Of a stretch of 64,000 bases of DNA, positions 4,656 to 12,777 are shown piece after piece. The notes under the pieces are model-generated. The model ran no database searches. It saw only the letters and a program-made list of their open reading frames with translations, and was not told where the DNA came from. Position numbers and translations under genes: made by a program. The DNA comes from Streptomyces griseoviridis (GTDB lineage: Bacteria > Actinomycetota > Actinomycetes > Streptomycetales > Streptomycetaceae), in assembly GCF_005222485.1 (NCBI RefSeq), contig NZ_CP029078.1, positions 4,367,501 to 4,431,500 of the forward strand, read 5' to 3'. Numbering within the stretch: the first letter of the stretch is position 1; every line of letters starts with the position of its first letter.

Positions 4656-6020
4656 TCAGGACGACCCCTTCGGGTCGGTGGAAGGCTCTCCACCGGCCGC
4701 GCGTTCGAACTCCGCTCGGGGATGTTCGAGGGAGCCGAGGGAGACGATCTCCCGCTTGAAGAGGCCGGAGAGCGTCCATTCGGCCAGGACCCGGGCCTTG
4801 CGGTTGAAGGTGGGGACCCGGCTGAGGTGGTAGGCGCGGTGCATGAACCAGGCAGGGTAGCCCGTCAGGGTGCGGCCGCGGAGCTGGGCGACGCCCTTGT
4901 GGAGGCCGAGGGAGGCGACCGCGCCGGTGTACGCGTGCGCGTACGTCTCGAGTTCCTCGCCGCGCAGGGCGTGGGCGATGTTGTCGCCGAGGACCTTGGC
5001 CTGGCGCAGCGCGTGCTGGGCGTTGGGCGCGGTGTGCGCGCCGGGTTCCGCGGTGACGTCGGGCACGGCGGCCGCGTCGCCGGCGGCCCACGCGTGCGGG
5101 ACGCCGTCGACGGTGAGGTGGGCGGTGCATTTCAGCCGCCCCCGGTCGGTGCGCGGGAGGCCGGTCAGGGCGATCAGGGGGTGCGGTCGGACGCCCGCGG
5201 TCCACACGACGGTGCGGGTCGGGAAGCGGGAGCCGTCGCTGAGGACGGCCACCCGGTCGGCGCAGGACTCCAGGCGGGTGGTGAGGCGTACGTCGATGTT
5301 GCGGCGGCGCAGTGCGGTGACCGTGTAGCGGCCGAGTTCCTCGCCGACCTCGGGCAGGACGCGGTCGGACGCCTCGACGAGGATCCATTTCATGTCGTCG
5401 GGCTGGACGTTGTGGTAGGAGCGGGAGGCGTAGCGGGCCATGTCCTCCAGTTCGCCGAGCGCCTCCACGCCCGCGTAGCCGCCGCCGACGAAGACGAAGG
5501 TGAGGGCCGCGTCGCGGAGGGCGGGGTCGCGGGTGGAGGAGGCGATGTCCATCTGTTCGATGACGTGGTTGCGCAGTCCGATGGCCTCCTCGACGGTCTT
5601 GAAACCGATGCCGTGGTCGGCGAGGCCGGGAACGGGCAGGGTGCGGGCGACGGAGCCGGGGGCGAGGACGAGTTCGTCGTACTCCAGCTGGTCGGGGCCC
5701 GTGCCCTCCTCCTCGGTGGCGAGAGTGGTGAGGTGCGCGGTGCGTTTGGCGTGGTCGAGCGCGGTGACCTCGCCGACGACGACCCGGCAGTGGTCGAGGA
5801 CCCGGCGCAGCGGCACGACGACGTGCCGGGGTGAGATGGATCCGGCCGCCGCCTCGGGAAGGAATGGCTGATACGTCATGTAGGGGTCGGGGGTGACGAC
5901 GGTGATCTCCACCTGGCCCCCGCGCAGTTCGCTTCTCAGCTTCCGCTGGAGGCGCAGCGCCGTGTACATCCCGACGTAGCCGCCGCCGACAACGAGAATG
6001 CGCGCACGTTCCTTCACCAT
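4656..6020 (-). CDS. ndh: type II NADH dehydrogenase (NAD(P)/FAD oxidoreductase)
   Basis: A 454-residue single-subunit, non-proton-pumping NADH:menaquinone reductase. An FAD-binding Rossmann motif VVGGGYVGMYTALRL lies at the N-terminus and a second nucleotide-binding motif FVFVGGGYAGVE at about residue 180. The family signature TYQPFLPEAAAGSISPRHVV and the WAAGDAA FAD motif near the C-terminal third are present. The start ATG 6020 matches the conserved beginning VKERARILVV; an in-frame ATG at 6065 would add 15 residues. It feeds electrons from NADH to the quinone pool at the cytoplasmic membrane face. Confidence 0.9.
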   Translation of the reverse strand: MVKERARILVVGGGYVGMYTALRLQRKLRSELRGGQVEITVVTPDPYMTYQPFLPEAAAGSISPRHVVVPLRRVLDHCRVVVGEVTALDHAKRTAHLTTLATEEEGTGPDQLEYDELVLAPGSVARTLPVPGLADHGIGFKTVEEAIGLRNHVIEQMDIASSTRDPALRDAALTFVFVGGGYAGVEALGELEDMARYASRSYHNVQPDDMKWILVEASDRVLPEVGEELGRYTVTALRRRNIDVRLTTRLESCADRVAVLSDGSRFPTRTVVWTAGVRPHPLIALTGLPRTDRGRLKCTAHLTVDGVPHAWAAGDAAAVPDVTAEPGAHTAPNAQHALRQAKVLGDNIAHALRGEELETYAHAYTGAVASLGLHKGVAQLRGRTLTGYPAWFMHRAYHLSRVPTFNRKARVLAEWTLSGLFKREIVSLGSLEHPRAEFERAAGGEPSTDPKGSS

Positions 6021-6391
6021 CCCATGACGCACCCGACGCTGGAGTTTGTCCACAGCCTCGACCATCTGTATGACTGCCGGCCGGGGACCTCCACAGTTGG
6101 CCGGATTGCCGGAGTACCCGTCAGATGCGCAGGTCAGCGGGGTGGGTGGGGGCGCGTTCCGGGGTGCAATCCGGGCGTATGCGACCCGTACTCCGATCGG
6201 GGGGCGCTCCGTGCGGAACCTGCCCCTTCTGAATTGACCCTCACTCAACTATGTTCGTCTGTCGACGGGGTGTAGGGGGTGCGCTCATCGGGTCCGCGAC
6301 GGGCGGGCGCGAGAAACGGGCTTGTTCCTGAGCCTCGGCTTGCAATGGCGGGGAGTCTCCGGGGGGAGACGTCATTACCGGGGGATCATTC
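6021..6391. promoter_or_regulatory. divergent intergenic region, ndh / tetR
   Basis: This 371-base gap lies between divergent ndh and the TetR gene and holds no convincing gene. A short dyad TTGA...TCAA occupies 6234-6248 (TTGACCCTCACTCAA), overlapping a possible -35 TTGACC. A GGGGGA ribosome site precedes the TetR start. Promoters for both genes must lie here but I cannot fix their -10 boxes. Confidence 0.4.
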
Positions 6392-7165
6392 ATGAGCATT
6401 CAGGAATCTCATTGGTCGACCGCAGCCGCTCTCGCAGCGAGCGGCATGGTGGGCGCGGCGGGCGGTGGACGCGGGGACGCCTCGCGGACGGCGCCGCTGC
6501 GTGTGGACGCACAGCGCAATCTGGAGCACGTACTGCGCGCGGCGCGCGAGGTCTTCGGCGAGCTGGGGTACGGCGCGCCGATGGAGGACGTGGCGCGGCG
6601 GGCGCGGGTGGGCGTGGGGACGGTGTACCGGCGCTTCCCGAGCAAGGACGTGCTGGTGCGTCGGATAGCCGAGGAGGAGACCTCCCGGCTGACCGACCAG
6701 GCCCGTACGGCGCTCGGCCAGGAGGACGAGCCGTGGTCGGCGCTCTCGCGCTTCCTGCGGACGTCGGTCGCCTCGGGTGCCGGGCGGCTGCTGCCGCCGC
6801 AGGTGCTGCGGGTGGGGGTCGCGGACGAGCGGGGCGGCGAGCACGGCGGCGCCGGTCCTGACGAGGCGCGGGTGCCGCAGCAGCGCAGTCAGCCAGGCGC
6901 GGGTGAGCTGCGGCTGGTGTCGGACAGCACGCCGGTGCCGGCGGCCGACGACGACACGGGCGCCGCGGCGCTCCTGGAGGTCGTGGGCAAGCTGGTCGAC
7001 CGGGCGCGGGCCTCGGGTGCGCTGCGGCCCGACGTGTCGGTGTCGGACGTCCTGCTGGTGATCGCCACGGCGGCGCCCGCGCTGCCCGACGCGGCGCAGC
7101 AGGCGGCTGCCTCGGCGCGGCTGCTGGACATCCTGCTGGAGGGGCTGCGTTCGCGCCCGATGTGA
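6392..7165 (+). CDS. TetR family transcriptional regulator
   Basis: A 257-residue protein. The TetR DNA-binding helix-turn-helix spans about residues 45-95 (HVLRAAREVFGELGYGAPMEDVARRARVG then VGTVYRRFPSKDVLV). The C-terminal half is helical with a low-complexity insert around residues 145-175 (GGEHGGAGPDEAR...). A GGGGGA site lies nine bases before ATG 6392. The first 35 residues are a non-conserved extension. It is divergent from ndh and may regulate it or itself; no ligand can be assigned. Confidence 0.88.
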   Translation: MSIQESHWSTAAALAASGMVGAAGGGRGDASRTAPLRVDAQRNLEHVLRAAREVFGELGYGAPMEDVARRARVGVGTVYRRFPSKDVLVRRIAEEETSRLTDQARTALGQEDEPWSALSRFLRTSVASGAGRLLPPQVLRVGVADERGGEHGGAGPDEARVPQQRSQPGAGELRLVSDSTPVPAADDDTGAAALLEVVGKLVDRARASGALRPDVSVSDVLLVIATAAPALPDAAQQAAASARLLDILLEGLRSRPM

Positions 7166-7473
7166 GGCGTCAGGCGTCAGTCTCCGTTGACGGCGGGTGA
7201 CTCGAAGGGGTGATGGTGGGGGCGTGGGCGGCGGTCCGCCCGCGCGCCCGGCGTGAGCCGGGAACACACCGGACAATTCGGGCCACTCGCCGAACGGGGC
7301 TGGCCGGGAAGCCGCTGGTTCCTTCCCCGAACGGGTGGCTCCTAGTACCACCGCACGGCAAGTCCCCACGGACGAGTGGACAGAGCACCCCGCGACCGTC
7401 CTGAACAAAAGCCAATATGGCACTCTGACCCGATGTTCGGGACTGGCAGGGCAGGCGGCGGGGGCTTTCCGCG
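7166..7473 (+). promoter_or_regulatory. upstream region of the tethered sigma factor gene
   Basis: A 308-base gap with no credible ORF. It holds two GAACGGG blocks (7291 and 7329) and an AATATG/TATGGC -10-like stretch near 7414, the only AT-rich patch. The promoter of the sigma gene is probably within the last 80 bases. Confidence 0.3.
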
Positions 7474-9780
7474 ATGAGCGTTGACGGGCGGGACGAGCCG
7501 CACGGCGCGTCGCGGGGCGATGACGACGGTGGGGTCCACGAAGTCGACGGCGTCCGCGAAGTCGACGGCGTCCACGGCGTCCGTGGCATGCATGACGCTG
7601 ACGGTCGCGGTGACCGCGAGGATCTCGACGGCGGTGGCGGCCAGGGCGACCGTGACCCTGCCAGCGCCGGTCACGGCGACGGCCCTGCCGGACACGGCGG
7701 CCACCGCGGTCGGGACGGCGACGCCTTCGACGGGGCCCCGCAGGTGCCGAGCCAGGGGGGCCGCGGGGGCCAGCCGCGTGGAGATGGACCGCACGGCGAT
7801 GTGCCGGACAGTGGTGCACCTGGCGGGGACGAGCCTGTCGGGGATGAGCCTGTCGGGTCGGCTTCCTTCGTCGAGGAGACCGTTCCCGCCCAGCGCGACC
7901 GGCGCGAGGACGGCAGTGTCCTGCCACCGCCCCGCGAACTGCCGCCCGCCGACGCCGAACTGATCGGACGGATGCGCGCGGGCGACGACAGCGCCTACGA
8001 GGAGCTGTACCGCCGGCACGCCGACGCCGTCCGCCGCTACGCCCGCACCTGCTGCCGGGACGCTGACACCGCCGACGACCTCACCGCCGAGGTCTTCGCC
8101 GCGATGCTCCAGGCGGTGCGCGGCGGCTCCGGACCCGAACAGGCCGTCCGCGCCTACCTGTTGACCTCCGTGCGCCGAGTGGCCGCGCGGTGGACCAAGT
8201 CCGCGCGACGCGAGCAACTCGTCGACGACTTCGCGGTCTTCGCCGACCAGGCCGCCGGTTCCGAGGCCGCCGACGACGACACTCTCGGCCTCGGCGCCGA
8301 CGTGCGCGCGCTGCACGAGGCCGAACGGTCCATGGCCATGCGGGCGTTCAGGTCGCTGCCCGAGCGCTGGCAGGCGGTGCTCTGGCACACCGAGGTCGAG
8401 GACGAGTCGCCCAGCGAGGTCGCCCCCCTCTTCGGGCTCGACGCCAACGGCACCCGGGTGCTCGCCAGCCGCGCCCGCGAGGGCCTCAAACAGGCCTACC
8501 TCCAGGCGCACGTCAGCGCCACCCTGGCCGGCGACGCCGAGTGCGCCCGCTACGCCGACCGGCTCGGCGCCTACGCCCGCGGCGGACTGCGCACCCGGGC
8601 CGAACTCGGGCTGCGCAAGCACCTCGACGAGTGCGCCCGGTGCCAGCTGGCGGCCGGGGAGATCAAGGAAGTCGCGAGCGGCATCCCGGCGGTCGTGCCG
8701 GTCGCCGTCATCGGCTGGTTCGGCGCGGCCGGGTACGCCAAGGCCGCCGTGTTCCTCGCCGGCGGCGCGGGCGCCGGAGCGGCCGGGGCCGCGGGGGCCG
8801 CCGCTGCGGCGACGGGCAAAGCCTCGGGCGGAGCGGCGGCGGCGGGCAAGGCGGCGAGTGGAGCGGCTGCGACGGGCAAAGCGGCGAAGGGCGCGGCTAC
8901 GGCGGGCAAAGCGGCGAAGGGCGCGGCCTCGGCAGGCAAAGCCGCGAAGGGCGCGGCTACTGCGGGCAAAGCCGCCGAGGGGCTCGGGACGCCCGCGAAG
9001 GTCGGGATCGCGGTCGGTGTGCTCGCCGTGACGGCCGCGGTGGCGTTCGCGCTGACCGGCGACGAGACCCCGGTCAGGAAGGCCGACGCCAAACCGCCGG
9101 CCTCCGCGCCGGTGGTGCGCGACACCCCTTCTCCGTCGGCGCCGAGGCCCACGCCGGCGCCTCCGACGAAGGGACCCGCTTCCGCGCCGCCGGTGATCGC
9201 GCCCTCGCCCGCGCCGAAGCCGAAGCCGAGGCCGACGCCTACCCCCACGCCCACCCCGTCGCCCTCACCCTCGCCGTCGCCCTCGTCGAGGCCCACCCCC
9301 ACGCCCACGCCTTCCCCGACCCCGCCGCCTCTCCCGGCGCCCGCACCGGCCGTCTACCAGTGGAACGAGCTGTCCTACAACCTGACCGGGGACGGCAGCG
9401 CGCCCGAGATGCGGCGCGGGGAGAGCAGTTGGGTGTGGCAGCGGTACGGGGTGTCGATCGGGGGGCGGCGGTACGACCACGGGGTGACCGTGCGCGGCCT
9501 GTCGTCCGTCACCATCGACCTCAACCGGCCCTGTTCCGCCTATGACGCGCTGGTCGGGGTCGACGACCTCGCCCTGGGCGTCGGCCGGGTCACCTTCTCC
9601 GTCTACGCGGACGGTGAGCGGCTGTGGCGGTCGGGGGAGATCCGGGCGGGCGAGGCGGGGGTGGCGGTGCGGGTGGGGCTCTCGGGGCGGAAGACGGTAC
9701 GGCTGGTGGTCGAACCCGGCGTTCCCTTCTCCGCGTTGACGCCGGTGGACTGGGCCGAGTCGAAGTTCACCTGTTCGTAG
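7474..9780 (+). CDS. membrane-tethered ECF-type sigma factor with ZAS motif and NPCBM domain
   Basis: A 768-residue fusion. Residues 1-150 are disordered and Gly/Asp/His-rich. Sigma region 2 lies at about 159-235 (ADAELIGRMRAGDDSAYEELYRRH) and region 4 at 289-345 (AFRSLPERWQAVLWHTEVE). A zinc-finger anti-sigma-like segment follows at about 349-397 with H383-x3-C387-x2-C390. A hydrophobic stretch, then Ala/Lys repeats (GKAAKGAA type) at about 440-500 lead to a transmembrane helix at 510-528. A Pro/Thr/Ser-rich linker runs to about 625, and residues 626-768 form an NPCBM putative carbohydrate-binding domain (YQWNELSYNL, DHGVTVRG, VGVDD, DWAESKF). Sigma regions would be cytoplasmic and NPCBM outside. 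ATG 7474 has only a G-rich upstream stretch, and later starts before residue 150 are possible. No separate anti-sigma gene is adjacent. Confidence 0.88.
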   Translation: MSVDGRDEPHGASRGDDDGGVHEVDGVREVDGVHGVRGMHDADGRGDREDLDGGGGQGDRDPASAGHGDGPAGHGGHRGRDGDAFDGAPQVPSQGGRGGQPRGDGPHGDVPDSGAPGGDEPVGDEPVGSASFVEETVPAQRDRREDGSVLPPPRELPPADAELIGRMRAGDDSAYEELYRRHADAVRRYARTCCRDADTADDLTAEVFAAMLQAVRGGSGPEQAVRAYLLTSVRRVAARWTKSARREQLVDDFAVFADQAAGSEAADDDTLGLGADVRALHEAERSMAMRAFRSLPERWQAVLWHTEVEDESPSEVAPLFGLDANGTRVLASRAREGLKQAYLQAHVSATLAGDAECARYADRLGAYARGGLRTRAELGLRKHLDECARCQLAAGEIKEVASGIPAVVPVAVIGWFGAAGYAKAAVFLAGGAGAGAAGAAGAAAAATGKASGGAAAAGKAASGAAATGKAAKGAATAGKAAKGAASAGKAAKGAATAGKAAEGLGTPAKVGIAVGVLAVTAAVAFALTGDETPVRKADAKPPASAPVVRDTPSPSAPRPTPAPPTKGPASAPPVIAPSPAPKPKPRPTPTPTPTPSPSPSPSPSSRPTPTPTPSPTPPPLPAPAPAVYQWNELSYNLTGDGSAPEMRRGESSWVWQRYGVSIGGRRYDHGVTVRGLSSVTIDLNRPCSAYDALVGVDDLALGVGRVTFSVYADGERLWRSGEIRAGEAGVAVRVGLSGRKTVRLVVEPGVPFSALTPVDWAESKFTCS

Positions 9781-10065: not shown

Positions 10066-12165
10066 TCACGCCACCCCCGCGCCCCCTCCTGACGCCAGTG
10101 CTCCCCTGCGGGGGGCGATGCCCTCGGGGACCGCTCGTTGGCGGGCCGGGGTGCCGGTCCAGCAGGTGCCTCTGCGGGAGAGGAGGCGGCGGAGCCAGAG
10201 TTCCAGGGCGACGAGGTCGGCGAGGCCGTCGATCGGGAGGGGTTCGCCCTCCGCCGCCGCGCGCAGTGCCTTGCGGACCACCCGGGCCTCCACCAGGCCC
10301 GCCTCCGCCAGGAGAGGGGTGCCGAAGAGGGTGGTCAGGGAGGCCGCCGCGGCGCGCAGGCCGGCGTGGGCCGCCTGGGACGCCGGGCCGTGGGAGGGGG
10401 CGCCCCAGCCGGGCGGCAGTTCGCTGACGCCGGCGCCCTCCAGGACCGTCCTGAGGATGTCGGCGCGGGCGCCCGGCTGGACGCGCAGGGCTTCCGGCAG
10501 GGCGCGGCAGGCGCGGACGACCTGGTTGTCGAGGAACGGGGTGTGCAGGCGCTGGGAGCGGATCTCCGCCGCCTGTTCCAGGACGCGCAGTTCCGCGGCC
10601 TGGCGGGCCAGGGCGGCCCGCGCGCGGTAGTCGCCGGGACGCTGGTTGGGGGCGAGCGAGGCACGGCGCGCCGACGCCTGGAGGCGAACCGATACTTCGG
10701 CGAGCGCCTCCCCGGTCAGCCAGCGCGCGGCGGGACCGGGTCTGGCCCAGGTGAGCGCGGCGAGCGAGGCGCCGACCGCGCCGCCGGGCTCGTCGAAACG
10801 GCGTTGGAGGAGCCGTTCCGCGAGGAGTTCGAGGCCGTCGAGGTAGGGGGTGCGGGCCAGTCGGCGGGCCGCGCCGTACACGCGGGCGGGGACGAGGACC
10901 GAGCCGTCGGCCTTGGCGAGCGCGGCGACCGGGCGGACCAGGTGGCGGCGTTTGCGGTCCATCAGGAGGTCGGCGAGGCGGGCCGGGTGGGCGTCGAGGA
11001 CCTGGCGGGCGCCGTAGCCGGTGAAGTGGTCGGCGCTGCCCGCAGCCAGCCGGGCCCGGTGCCTGGCGGCGCTCACCAGGCAGCGGCCCGGCTCGTCGGT
11101 GAGGGGCCCTTCGAGGTCGGCGTAGGGCAGGGTGTCCTCGTCGCCGGTCACCACCACGTGGTGCAGGCGCGGGTTGGCCGCGAGGGTGCCCGCCCGCTGC
11201 ACCTCGGCCTCCCGGCCGCCGGTCACCAGGTCGTTGAAGGTGACCGCGAGGAGCCGTTCCCCGGCGCCGGTGCCGTGTCCGAGGACGGTGCCCGGCATGC
11301 CGGGCAGGCCGGCCGCGAGGAGCGCGAGGGTGCCCGAGGCGGGGCCGCCCGAGAGGTCGGCGCCGATGCCCGCGACCGGCATCCCGCGCGCGGCGCGCCG
11401 CTCGGCGGGGCCCATGCCGGGGACCGGTCCCTGGTCCATCTCTATGCCGGGGACGTGCCGGGGCGCCGACAGCCGCGCGCGGACCGCGTCGACGAGCGCG
11501 TCGCGCACGGCGTCGACGGCGCTGTCCGGGTCGGCGGAGGGTGCCGCGACGGCCAGGGAGGCGACGGGCTCGTAACCGGCGACCTCGCGCGCCCCCGCGC
11601 GCAGGATCAGCGCGTGCCCCGGCGGAACGCGCCTGACGCCCTCGTAGGGCGTGGAGTCCTGGAGGGCGGCCGGTACGTCGGGGGCGGCCAGCAGGGCGGC
11701 GAGGTGGCCGAAGTCGAGGTTGGCCTCGACGAGGTCGGCGAGCGGCAGCGCGGCCGTCGCGTACGCGGTGCCCTGTGCCCAGGGGGTGTGGAACACCGGT
11801 CGCGCGCCCGCCAGATCGCCGCAGACGGTGATCCGGCGGCCGGCCTGGACGACCGCCGTGTAGCTGCCCGCCCAGGCCGTCAGATGGCGCAGCGCGCCGC
11901 CGCGGGCGGCGAACAGGCCGACCCGCAGCTCCTCGTCGGAGGCGGCGCAGGTGCCGAGGACGGCGATCCGGTTCTCCGGGTCGGCCTTGACGACGCGGAC
12001 CTCGTCGGGGCGCCAGTCGCCGACCGCCCAGAGCGGATCGGGGTCGCCCCACAGGAGTTGGGAGCCCACCGGGTGCACGGTCTCCCCGTCGGTCCCGGTC
12101 GCTCCCGCGGAGCCGATCCCGGCGCTCCGCGCGGCGGTGCTGCTCCATCCCACCAACCACCGCAT
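10066..12165 (-). CDS. asparagine synthase-like protein
   Basis: A 699-residue protein with the overall plan of class B asparagine synthetase. The N-terminal half resembles the glutaminase fold but begins MRWLVGW and lacks the catalytic Cys2, so it cannot use glutamine in the normal way. The C-terminal half has a degenerate PP-loop, DLSGGPASG at about residues 295-303 instead of SGGxDS, and a conserved tail with [21 protein letters not shown] site precedes ATG 12165 by five bases. From memory it is conserved next to the sporulation gene in Streptomyces; no substrate is known. Lasso-peptide cyclases share this fold, but no precursor peptide is seen nearby. Confidence 0.8.
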
Positions 12166-12777
12166 GGACGCCTCCACAGCCTGTGGACAACCAGTGCACC
12201 GTACGAACGATTCACCATGCTGCCATGAAGAACGCGCCACAGAGAGGCGGTGACACCGCCGACGACCCGGGGGACGCGCCCCTGCGCCCACCCTGTCAGG
12301 AGACCGGACGCCGGTGGCGGGCGGGTGCGTTGCGACGCGAATGCGCCCCCGTCGCGCGCCCCGAGAACGCCCTTCGCGCCCTCAACTCCCGTGGTAGGAA
12401 GGGTGATCGGGCACCGAAGACAGGATCGATTTTCGGCCAATTCGGCTCAGCGGAAACGGAGTTGGGGATCCCGCGCACACGCTCCGTGTCCGGAGCCGGC
12501 CGTCCGAGCGGCCCTCGTACCGCGTCAGCCCGGGGGGCGGGACTCGCCCCCCGGGCCGGTTCCGCCGCCCGCGGGGATGAAGGCGGCGGCGTCCCCCAGC
12601 CCACTGGATCCAGTACAGCGGGCCGACCCACGCAAGGTCCATGGAAGCGCTCCCCCGGTGGCCGGAGTAGAGCGCACGGACAGGCGCACGGCCACACAGC
12701 GGGAGCACGCCGCGACTGCGCGTGTCGGCGCCGCACTCGCGTGCGGACCACAATCCCGCCATCCGGAACAATGCCTC
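12166..12777. promoter_or_regulatory. long divergent region, asparagine-synthase-like / ORF1590-like
   Basis: About 600 bases without a credible gene. The leftward gene has a TACGGT -10-like box at about 12200-12205 (reverse strand), and GGCGG-TGACA-CCGCC forms a small dyad at 12246-12260. The reading frame of the rightward gene stays open throughout but its translation is Arg/Pro-rich and not protein-like until about 12771. A strong hairpin sits at 12530-12556. Confidence 0.4.
12530..12556. terminator. strong GC hairpin inside divergent region
   Basis: Perfect 11-base arms CCCGGGGGGCG (12530-12540) and CGCCCCCCGGG (12546-12556) enclose the loop GGACT. There is no U-tract, as is common for Streptomyces terminators. 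Its place between two divergently transcribed genes means no annotated gene ends here, so it may insulate the two promoters or end an unrecognised short transcript. Confidence 0.55.

Follow-up and report, generated by a model that had tools for sequence, protein, structure and literature searches.

The first ECF52 sigma factor to be characterised is SCO4117 of Streptomyces coelicolor, the parts of which, as set out in PMC5826349, stand in the same order as those of the protein described here. Deletion of SCO4117 delayed development and actinorhodin production and lowered CDA. Sporulation was less impaired in a strain keeping just the first 305 residues than in the deletion, and compared with the wild type this sigma-only strain was still delayed in actinorhodin production and sporulation and made less CDA (PMC5826349). 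Proteolysis or a conformational change has already been proposed for ECF52, including by Pinto and Mascher as quoted in PMC5826349, and a passage in a review proposes proteolysis for ECF52 alongside IutY (PMC8999054). IutY of Pseudomonas putida (ECF243) is a sigma/anti-sigma fusion that answers the siderophore aerobactin and whose activation proceeds through cleavage by Prc and RseP (PMC8999054). ECF48 and ECF53 of Actinobacteria carry a C-terminal zinc finger together with one or two membrane helices (PMC8999054), and glycosyl hydrolase or carbohydrate-binding domains are attributed to some ECF52/53 proteins (PMC10766802).

The DNA analysed here, referred to as the window, is a stretch of 64,000 nucleotides from Streptomyces griseoviridis (contig NZ_CP029078.1, positions 4,367,501 to 4,431,500 of the forward strand). 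A preliminary description had read in it one 768-residue frame joining sigma regions 2 and 4, a zinc anti-sigma-like segment, a membrane helix, a Pro-rich stalk and an NPCBM domain, and this reading was borne out. The features of the gene and of its surroundings are as follows:

4656-6248, minus strand: NDH-2-type NADH dehydrogenase-like gene, which we take to be in the position of SCO4119
6392-7165, plus strand: upstream gene of the TetR family, occupying the place of atrA (SCO4118; location of atrA as given in PMC5826349)
7364-7379, plus strand: conserved upstream block 1 (alignment of 109 sequences)
7416-7441, plus strand: conserved upstream block 2 (alignment of 109 sequences)
7474-9780, plus strand: complete fused gene, 768 amino acids, almost certainly the SCO4117 (ECF52) ortholog
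7474-7944, plus strand: N-terminal low-complexity region by composition, residues 1-157, 61% G+D+R+E+H
8005-8211, plus strand: sigma region 2, residues 178-246
8335-8481, plus strand: sigma region 4, residues 288-336
8542-8646, plus strand: zinc anti-sigma-like (zf-HC2) segment, residues 357-391, match above cut-off
8671-8745, plus strand: residues 400-424, conserved hydrophobic helix that follows the zinc segment, putatively part of the inhibitor
8746-9000, plus strand: Ala/Gly-rich linker containing a lineage-specific tandem Lys/Ala array
9001-9057, plus strand: strongly predicted membrane helix by hydropathy, residues 510-528, with one in the orthologs too
9058-9369, plus strand: Pro-rich stalk, residues 529-632, 104 amino acids, about 38% Pro
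9370-9777, plus strand: NPCBM/CBM51-type domain, residues 633-768, with conserved C687 and C767

When published SCO4117 oligonucleotide stretches, as printed or reverse-complemented, were compared with the window they matched at the three expected places, over the start codon (7465, 0 mismatches), at the end of sigma region 4 (8487, 1 mismatch) and at the start of the outer domain (9353, 1 mismatch), with a chance expectation of 0.00-0.01 at three mismatches or fewer. The two proteins are also alike in domain order, in the TetR-family neighbour at the atrA position and in the position of a phosphosite: Thr231, reported as a phosphosite in SCO4117 (PMC5826349), corresponds to T270 here by an offset of 39 residues, which also links residue 305 to residue 344, and Thr is found at this position in 69 of 87 orthologs. 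The window copy differs in its longer N-terminal part (offset 39 residues) and in a Lys/Ala minisatellite between the zinc segment and the helix. The protein has sigma regions 2 and 4, a zinc-finger segment and at least one transmembrane helix predicted by hydropathy, and a long Pro-rich extension that is predicted to end in a carbohydrate-binding-type domain, all of them ECF52 features. It is almost certainly an ECF52 sigma factor orthologous to SCO4117, the orthology resting on the oligonucleotide sites, the neighbour and the residue offset.

The closest database protein, among the best 120 of 4385 proteins under the E limit, is from Streptomyces griseoviridis and is identical across residues 155-400. 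Core matches at E <= 1e-60 occur in 108 of 121 genomes of the same genus, and the genome of the window holds one NPCBM match. After removal of 27 of 114 sequences (24 cut at the 3' end and 3 duplicates) 87 complete orthologs were left, and in 83 of these sigma, zinc segment, helix and NPCBM are encoded by one continuous frame. The fusion is already known, with a characterised ortholog, and is ordinary for Streptomyces; the novelty that the same description had implied falls away, SCO4117 having already been characterised as ECF52 (PMC5826349). Counts on NPCBM were made on 83 proteins, with L030, L058, L069 and L188 also dropped from the 87. L058 is a draft ortholog in which NPCBM is matched downstream, outside a shortened sigma frame of 401 residues, resembling the S. 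clavuligerus case discussed below.

Among other known systems, ECF48 and ECF53 have outer parts different from that of the window protein. IutY is analogous in that sigma and inhibitor lie on one membrane-spanning chain for which, as proposed here, release would be proteolytic, whereas in the window protein the segment is of the zinc type and the chain bears a sugar-binding-type outer domain of its own. The C-terminal part of IutY is FecR-like; searches of the window protein at E up to 1 gave no FecR-type match, and neither a SnoaL-like nor a TPR C-terminal domain of the ECF41/ECF42/ECF56 type.

Upstream of the gene the stretch between the two conserved blocks is variable among the 109 aligned sequences, and the blocks themselves are possibly an autoregulated promoter or a regulator site. 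A scan with promoter and terminator consensus sequences gave 0 and 0 hits, such consensus being uninformative for ECF promoters, for which CSGYN-17-SRHA is a published motif. On the other side the gene is adjoined by an asparagine-synthase-like protein (10066-12291, minus strand), which resembles the albusnodin/ikarugamycin macrolactam cyclase family (NF033561, 207.6 bits, under the cut-off of 300).

The N-terminal residues 1-157 are probably disordered, as far as can be told from composition, and the length of this region differs among the orthologs, with 47-218 residues before the core when start sites are taken mechanically. The match to sigma region 4 lies under the Pfam cut-off and is backed by TIGR02937, by the core profile and by the predicted fold; the presence of this fold in structure prediction was a check set beforehand. 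An alignment of cores, comprising the window and 112 of 191 loci thinned by script (34-89% identity to the window), showed that C357, H383, C387 and C390 are invariant in 113 of 113 sequences, as they are in 87 of 87 orthologs. These residues, the presumptive zinc ligands, are C208, H234, C238 and C241 of the aligned piece and belong to its twelve invariant columns. Zinc anti-sigma (ZAS) proteins bind through the set H-x3-C-x2-C and a fourth, upstream ligand, to which H383, C387 and C390 together with C357 presumably correspond; the motif can also be seen in the sequence of L138. When run against PDB the core profile matched, in the zinc segment, RslA (E 1.1e-4), ChrR (0.004) and RsiW (0.007), the inhibitors of the pairs RslA/SigL, ChrR/SigE and RsiW/SigW, in which sigma and inhibitor are separate chains, unlike in the window protein. 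It is likely that the zinc segment inhibits the sigma part in cis.

The Lys/Ala array is a minisatellite of 30 bases at 8806-8975, with 5.7 copies of 10 residues per unit, lying within the coding sequence. Among 120 close homologs GKA occurs in one, P0001, of the same or a sister species, and is lacking from the other 119 including the next closest, P0002. The linker holds 11 Lys in the window and 1-3 in 86 of 87 orthologs, and the distance from the zinc motif to the membrane helix is 74-151 residues (median 81, 83 orthologs). The basic repeat had been thought of as a possible lipid or DNA contact; this was rejected as a trait of the family, and a general function is not upheld by the distribution, which is that of a local, lineage-specific minisatellite.

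NPCBM was found in 83 of the 87 complete orthologs and both C687 and C767 are kept in all 83. A separate alignment of this domain comprised the window, L138 and 56 of 78 other NPCBM pieces (those thinned from 82). The model of the outer domain (pLDDT 91.3) gave as its top match in Foldseek the CBM51 of Akkermansia alpha-1,3-galactosidase B (E 2.6e-9), followed among the matches considered by the GlcNAc complex of ZmpB CBM51-2 (E 1.3e-8) and the galactose-bound GH95 CBM51 (E 6.3e-8). The outer domain is thus modelled with confidence as having a CBM51-type sugar-binding fold, and its role in sugar binding is putative. The modelled fold is the same as in the CBM51 modules of Clostridium perfringens GH95 and ZmpB and of the Akkermansia enzyme, but those modules are attached to glycosidases or a protease and that of the window to a sigma factor.

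To place the outer domain, cysteines beyond the main helix were counted in 73 complete distant relatives, the two that were too short (L184 and L185) and one cut at the 3' end (L179) having been dropped from 76. The counts were 0 in 14 proteins, 2 in 25, 3 in two, 4 in 24, 5 in two, 6 in five and 12 in one, giving an even number in 69 of 73 (14 of these zero) and an odd number in 4. Non-zero counts were even in 55 of 59 proteins, and when proteins were grouped by similarity of the outer domain the modal count was even in 22 of the 23 clusters that hold cysteines. As a control the region from core start to helix, minus the three zinc cysteines, gave 50 proteins with none, 5 even and 18 odd; this control is weak, 50 of 73 having no further cysteine and 13 just one, and shows no pairing tendency. 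The even counts favour disulphide-bonded domains outside the cell, and cytosolic metal sites could also give them. The outer domain very probably lies outside, and the fusion of sigma, inhibitor-like and outer-sensor-like parts proposed in the preliminary description is backed by Pfam, PDB-profile, conservation and cysteine-parity evidence.

Charge was less consistent. Lys and Arg at the main helix of 87 orthologs were more numerous on the inner flank in 3, equal in 16 and fewer in 68, the net charge in 83 orthologs was higher on the inner flank in 42, equal in 26 and lower in 15, and among 74 distant relatives Lys and Arg favoured the inner flank in 37, were equal in 22 and spoke against it in 15. 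The charge rule, being mixed to contrary in the orthologs, was left out as support for the topology. The hydrophobic stretch at 400-424 is conserved, its best window in 74 distant relatives having a median Kyte-Doolittle value of 1.60 and reaching 2.44, and leaves doubt in a topology drawn from hydropathy, since a second membrane helix would put NPCBM inside. As a sigma part inside and a C-terminus outside need an odd number of helices, residues 400-424 are more likely part of the inhibitor than a membrane helix.

In a class-wide search 143 of 394 genomes gave a core match at E <= 1e-12, the fusion being checked for a subset. From the matches listed 76 distant relatives were picked by hand, not at random, and 75 of them have one or more hydrophobic segments beyond the core region. 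Pfam scans were run protein by protein for 30 of the 76, and on the post-helix parts together for 74. In the latter scan (E <= 0.001) the outer parts matched RicinB_lectin_2 in 11 cases, Big_6 in 6 and Ig I-set in 4, with one match each to NPCBM, DUF642, F5/8C, DUF11 and CAP, so that ricin-B lectin, Ig I-set, Big_6, F5/8C, DUF642 and DUF11 domains of surface or secreted types stand in the outer position. The outer parts of the 73 complete distant relatives fall into 33 clusters with no detectable similarity between one and another. When pairs were sorted by core identity a detectable common outer part was found in 19 of 990 at 40-50%, 71 of 395 at 50-60%, 9 of 125 at 60-70%, 23 of 69 at 70-80%, 30 of 35 at 80-90% and 11 of 11 at 90-100%; the pairs are not independent, and owing to low-complexity masking and the threshold of 60 residues at 1e-6 these counts are lower bounds of homology. 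Outer parts apparently turn over faster than cores, the core staying while the outer domains differ. Fast turnover of the ectodomain was not met in the titles, abstracts and passages of the literature searched, a search that the main ECF classification papers lay outside.

Some single relatives may be mentioned. In L169 the outer part borne by the sigma-zinc-helix core shows Ig I-set domains along with a match to ricin-B lectin. Three genomes of the same genus (G252, G317 and G243) hold an SCO4117-like core plus the further sigma-zinc fusions L113, L114, L124, L125 and L129, whose outer parts are ricin-type for L113 (under the cut-off, with L114 and L124 clustering with it), F5/8C for L125 and DUF642 for L129. 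Short relatives are represented by L184 and by frames in G115 and G350, with open frames of about 305-317 amino acids; L184 (295 amino acids) stops shortly beyond the zinc segment and showed no hydrophobic helix, and relatives of this type are possibly soluble sigma-inhibitor fusions. In L154, L162, L171 and L182 the open frame has 211-408 residues ahead of the sigma core, the start sites being provisional.

Taken as a whole, it is reasonably probable that the window protein is an ECF52 one-chain sensor with inhibition in cis and proteolytic release. The sigma part and the zinc segment would lie in the cytoplasm, where the zinc segment would fold back on the sigma domains in cis and, at the membrane, keep them away from RNA polymerase. 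Held on its stalk in or beyond the cell wall, the CBM51-type domain would sense a glycan of the wall or the environment, and a change in its bound state may make the stalk or helix accessible to proteolysis, first by a wall-side protease and then by an M50 site-2 protease. This would free the cytoplasmic part, and with the zinc segment lost or refolded the sigma factor could act on genes for development and antibiotics. M50-protease matches are present in two open frames of the genome of the window, and since such proteases occur in all 14 control genomes their presence says little. The milder phenotype of the sigma-only truncation compared with the deletion suggests that the sigma part acts by itself; that this strain remains below the wild type suggests that the tail-less sigma falls short of full activity, something not expected from a pure inhibitor model. 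With sigma and inhibitor on one chain, processive proteolysis could destroy the sigma part too, so that the protease must stop before it. We lean towards activation by proteolysis rather than by a conformational change alone; the preliminary description had offered both cleavage and a conformational switch, an idea already in print in passages of PMC5826349 and PMC8999054.

Conformation alone would mean that glycan binding or wall tension acts through stalk and helix until the zinc segment lets go, with no cleavage, the sigma factor working while tethered or bringing polymerase to DNA near the membrane. The proposal of Pinto and Mascher as quoted in PMC5826349 allows for this, the linker from core to helix (74-151 residues, median 81) is long and probably flexible, and the wild type was not regained when the tail was removed entirely (PMC5826349). 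A membrane-held sigma factor would nevertheless have to reach many scattered promoters, and IutY, the studied fusion, is activated by proteolysis (PMC8999054), so that this mechanism seems to us rather unlikely. Distinctly less probable is that the zinc segment acts as a cytoplasmic redox or metal sensor in cis, with an outer domain that serves chiefly to anchor or position the protein. The usual stimulus of soluble zinc anti-sigma factors is oxidative stress (PMC8999054). Short relatives such as L184 that end soon after the zinc segment exist, and the outer domains vary widely while the presumptive zinc ligands are constant in the 113 aligned cores. Membrane-bound zinc anti-sigma factors such as RsiW, however, are released by proteolysis and not by redox, and an NPCBM in 83 of 87 orthologs with both cysteines in 83 of 83 is more than an anchor would need.

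If both 400-424 and 510-528 were membrane helices, NPCBM would be cytoplasmic and would sense internal sugars or sugar nucleotides. Besides the hydrophobicity and conservation of 400-424 (median Kyte-Doolittle 1.60, up to 2.44) and the Lys and Arg counts, which lean that way in the orthologs, ECF52 proteins are said to vary in the number of membrane helices (PMC5826349) and a role for NPCBM domains within cells, in conflict systems, has been proposed (PMC8195603). The arrangement is nonetheless very improbable in view of the even cysteine counts past the main helix (69 of 73 proteins, 22 of 23 clusters), the extracellular-type outer domains of the relatives and the Lys-rich loop of the window, which would then be outside. 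It is hardly credible that an ordinary ECF sigma factor bears a C-terminal extension of no significance here, or that separate genes have been joined artificially. For S. clavuligerus a stop that divides the parts is reported, which may be an error of sequencing (PMC5826349), and the draft locus L058 has its NPCBM outside the sigma frame, but in 83 of the 87 complete orthologs a single frame continues through NPCBM, every one of the 83 having both cysteines, and this refutes the idea in silico for most orthologs.

The reading preferred here, a one-chain ECF52 sensor released by proteolysis, concerns in SCO4117 a regulator of development and antibiotics in Streptomyces, and the presumptive zinc ligands, the CBM51-type fold and the paired cysteines give handles on the switching of a membrane-bound sigma factor. 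More tentatively, the sigma-zinc-helix core might be a plug-in receptor chassis across actinomycete families, with an outer domain exchanged much faster than the core. If true, these would be one-chain receptors in which lineage-specific binding by lectin, Ig-like or discoidin domains outside leads to direct promoter choice inside, and a constant core with rapidly exchanged outer domains would turn the family into natural chimeras for rewiring outside signals to promoters.
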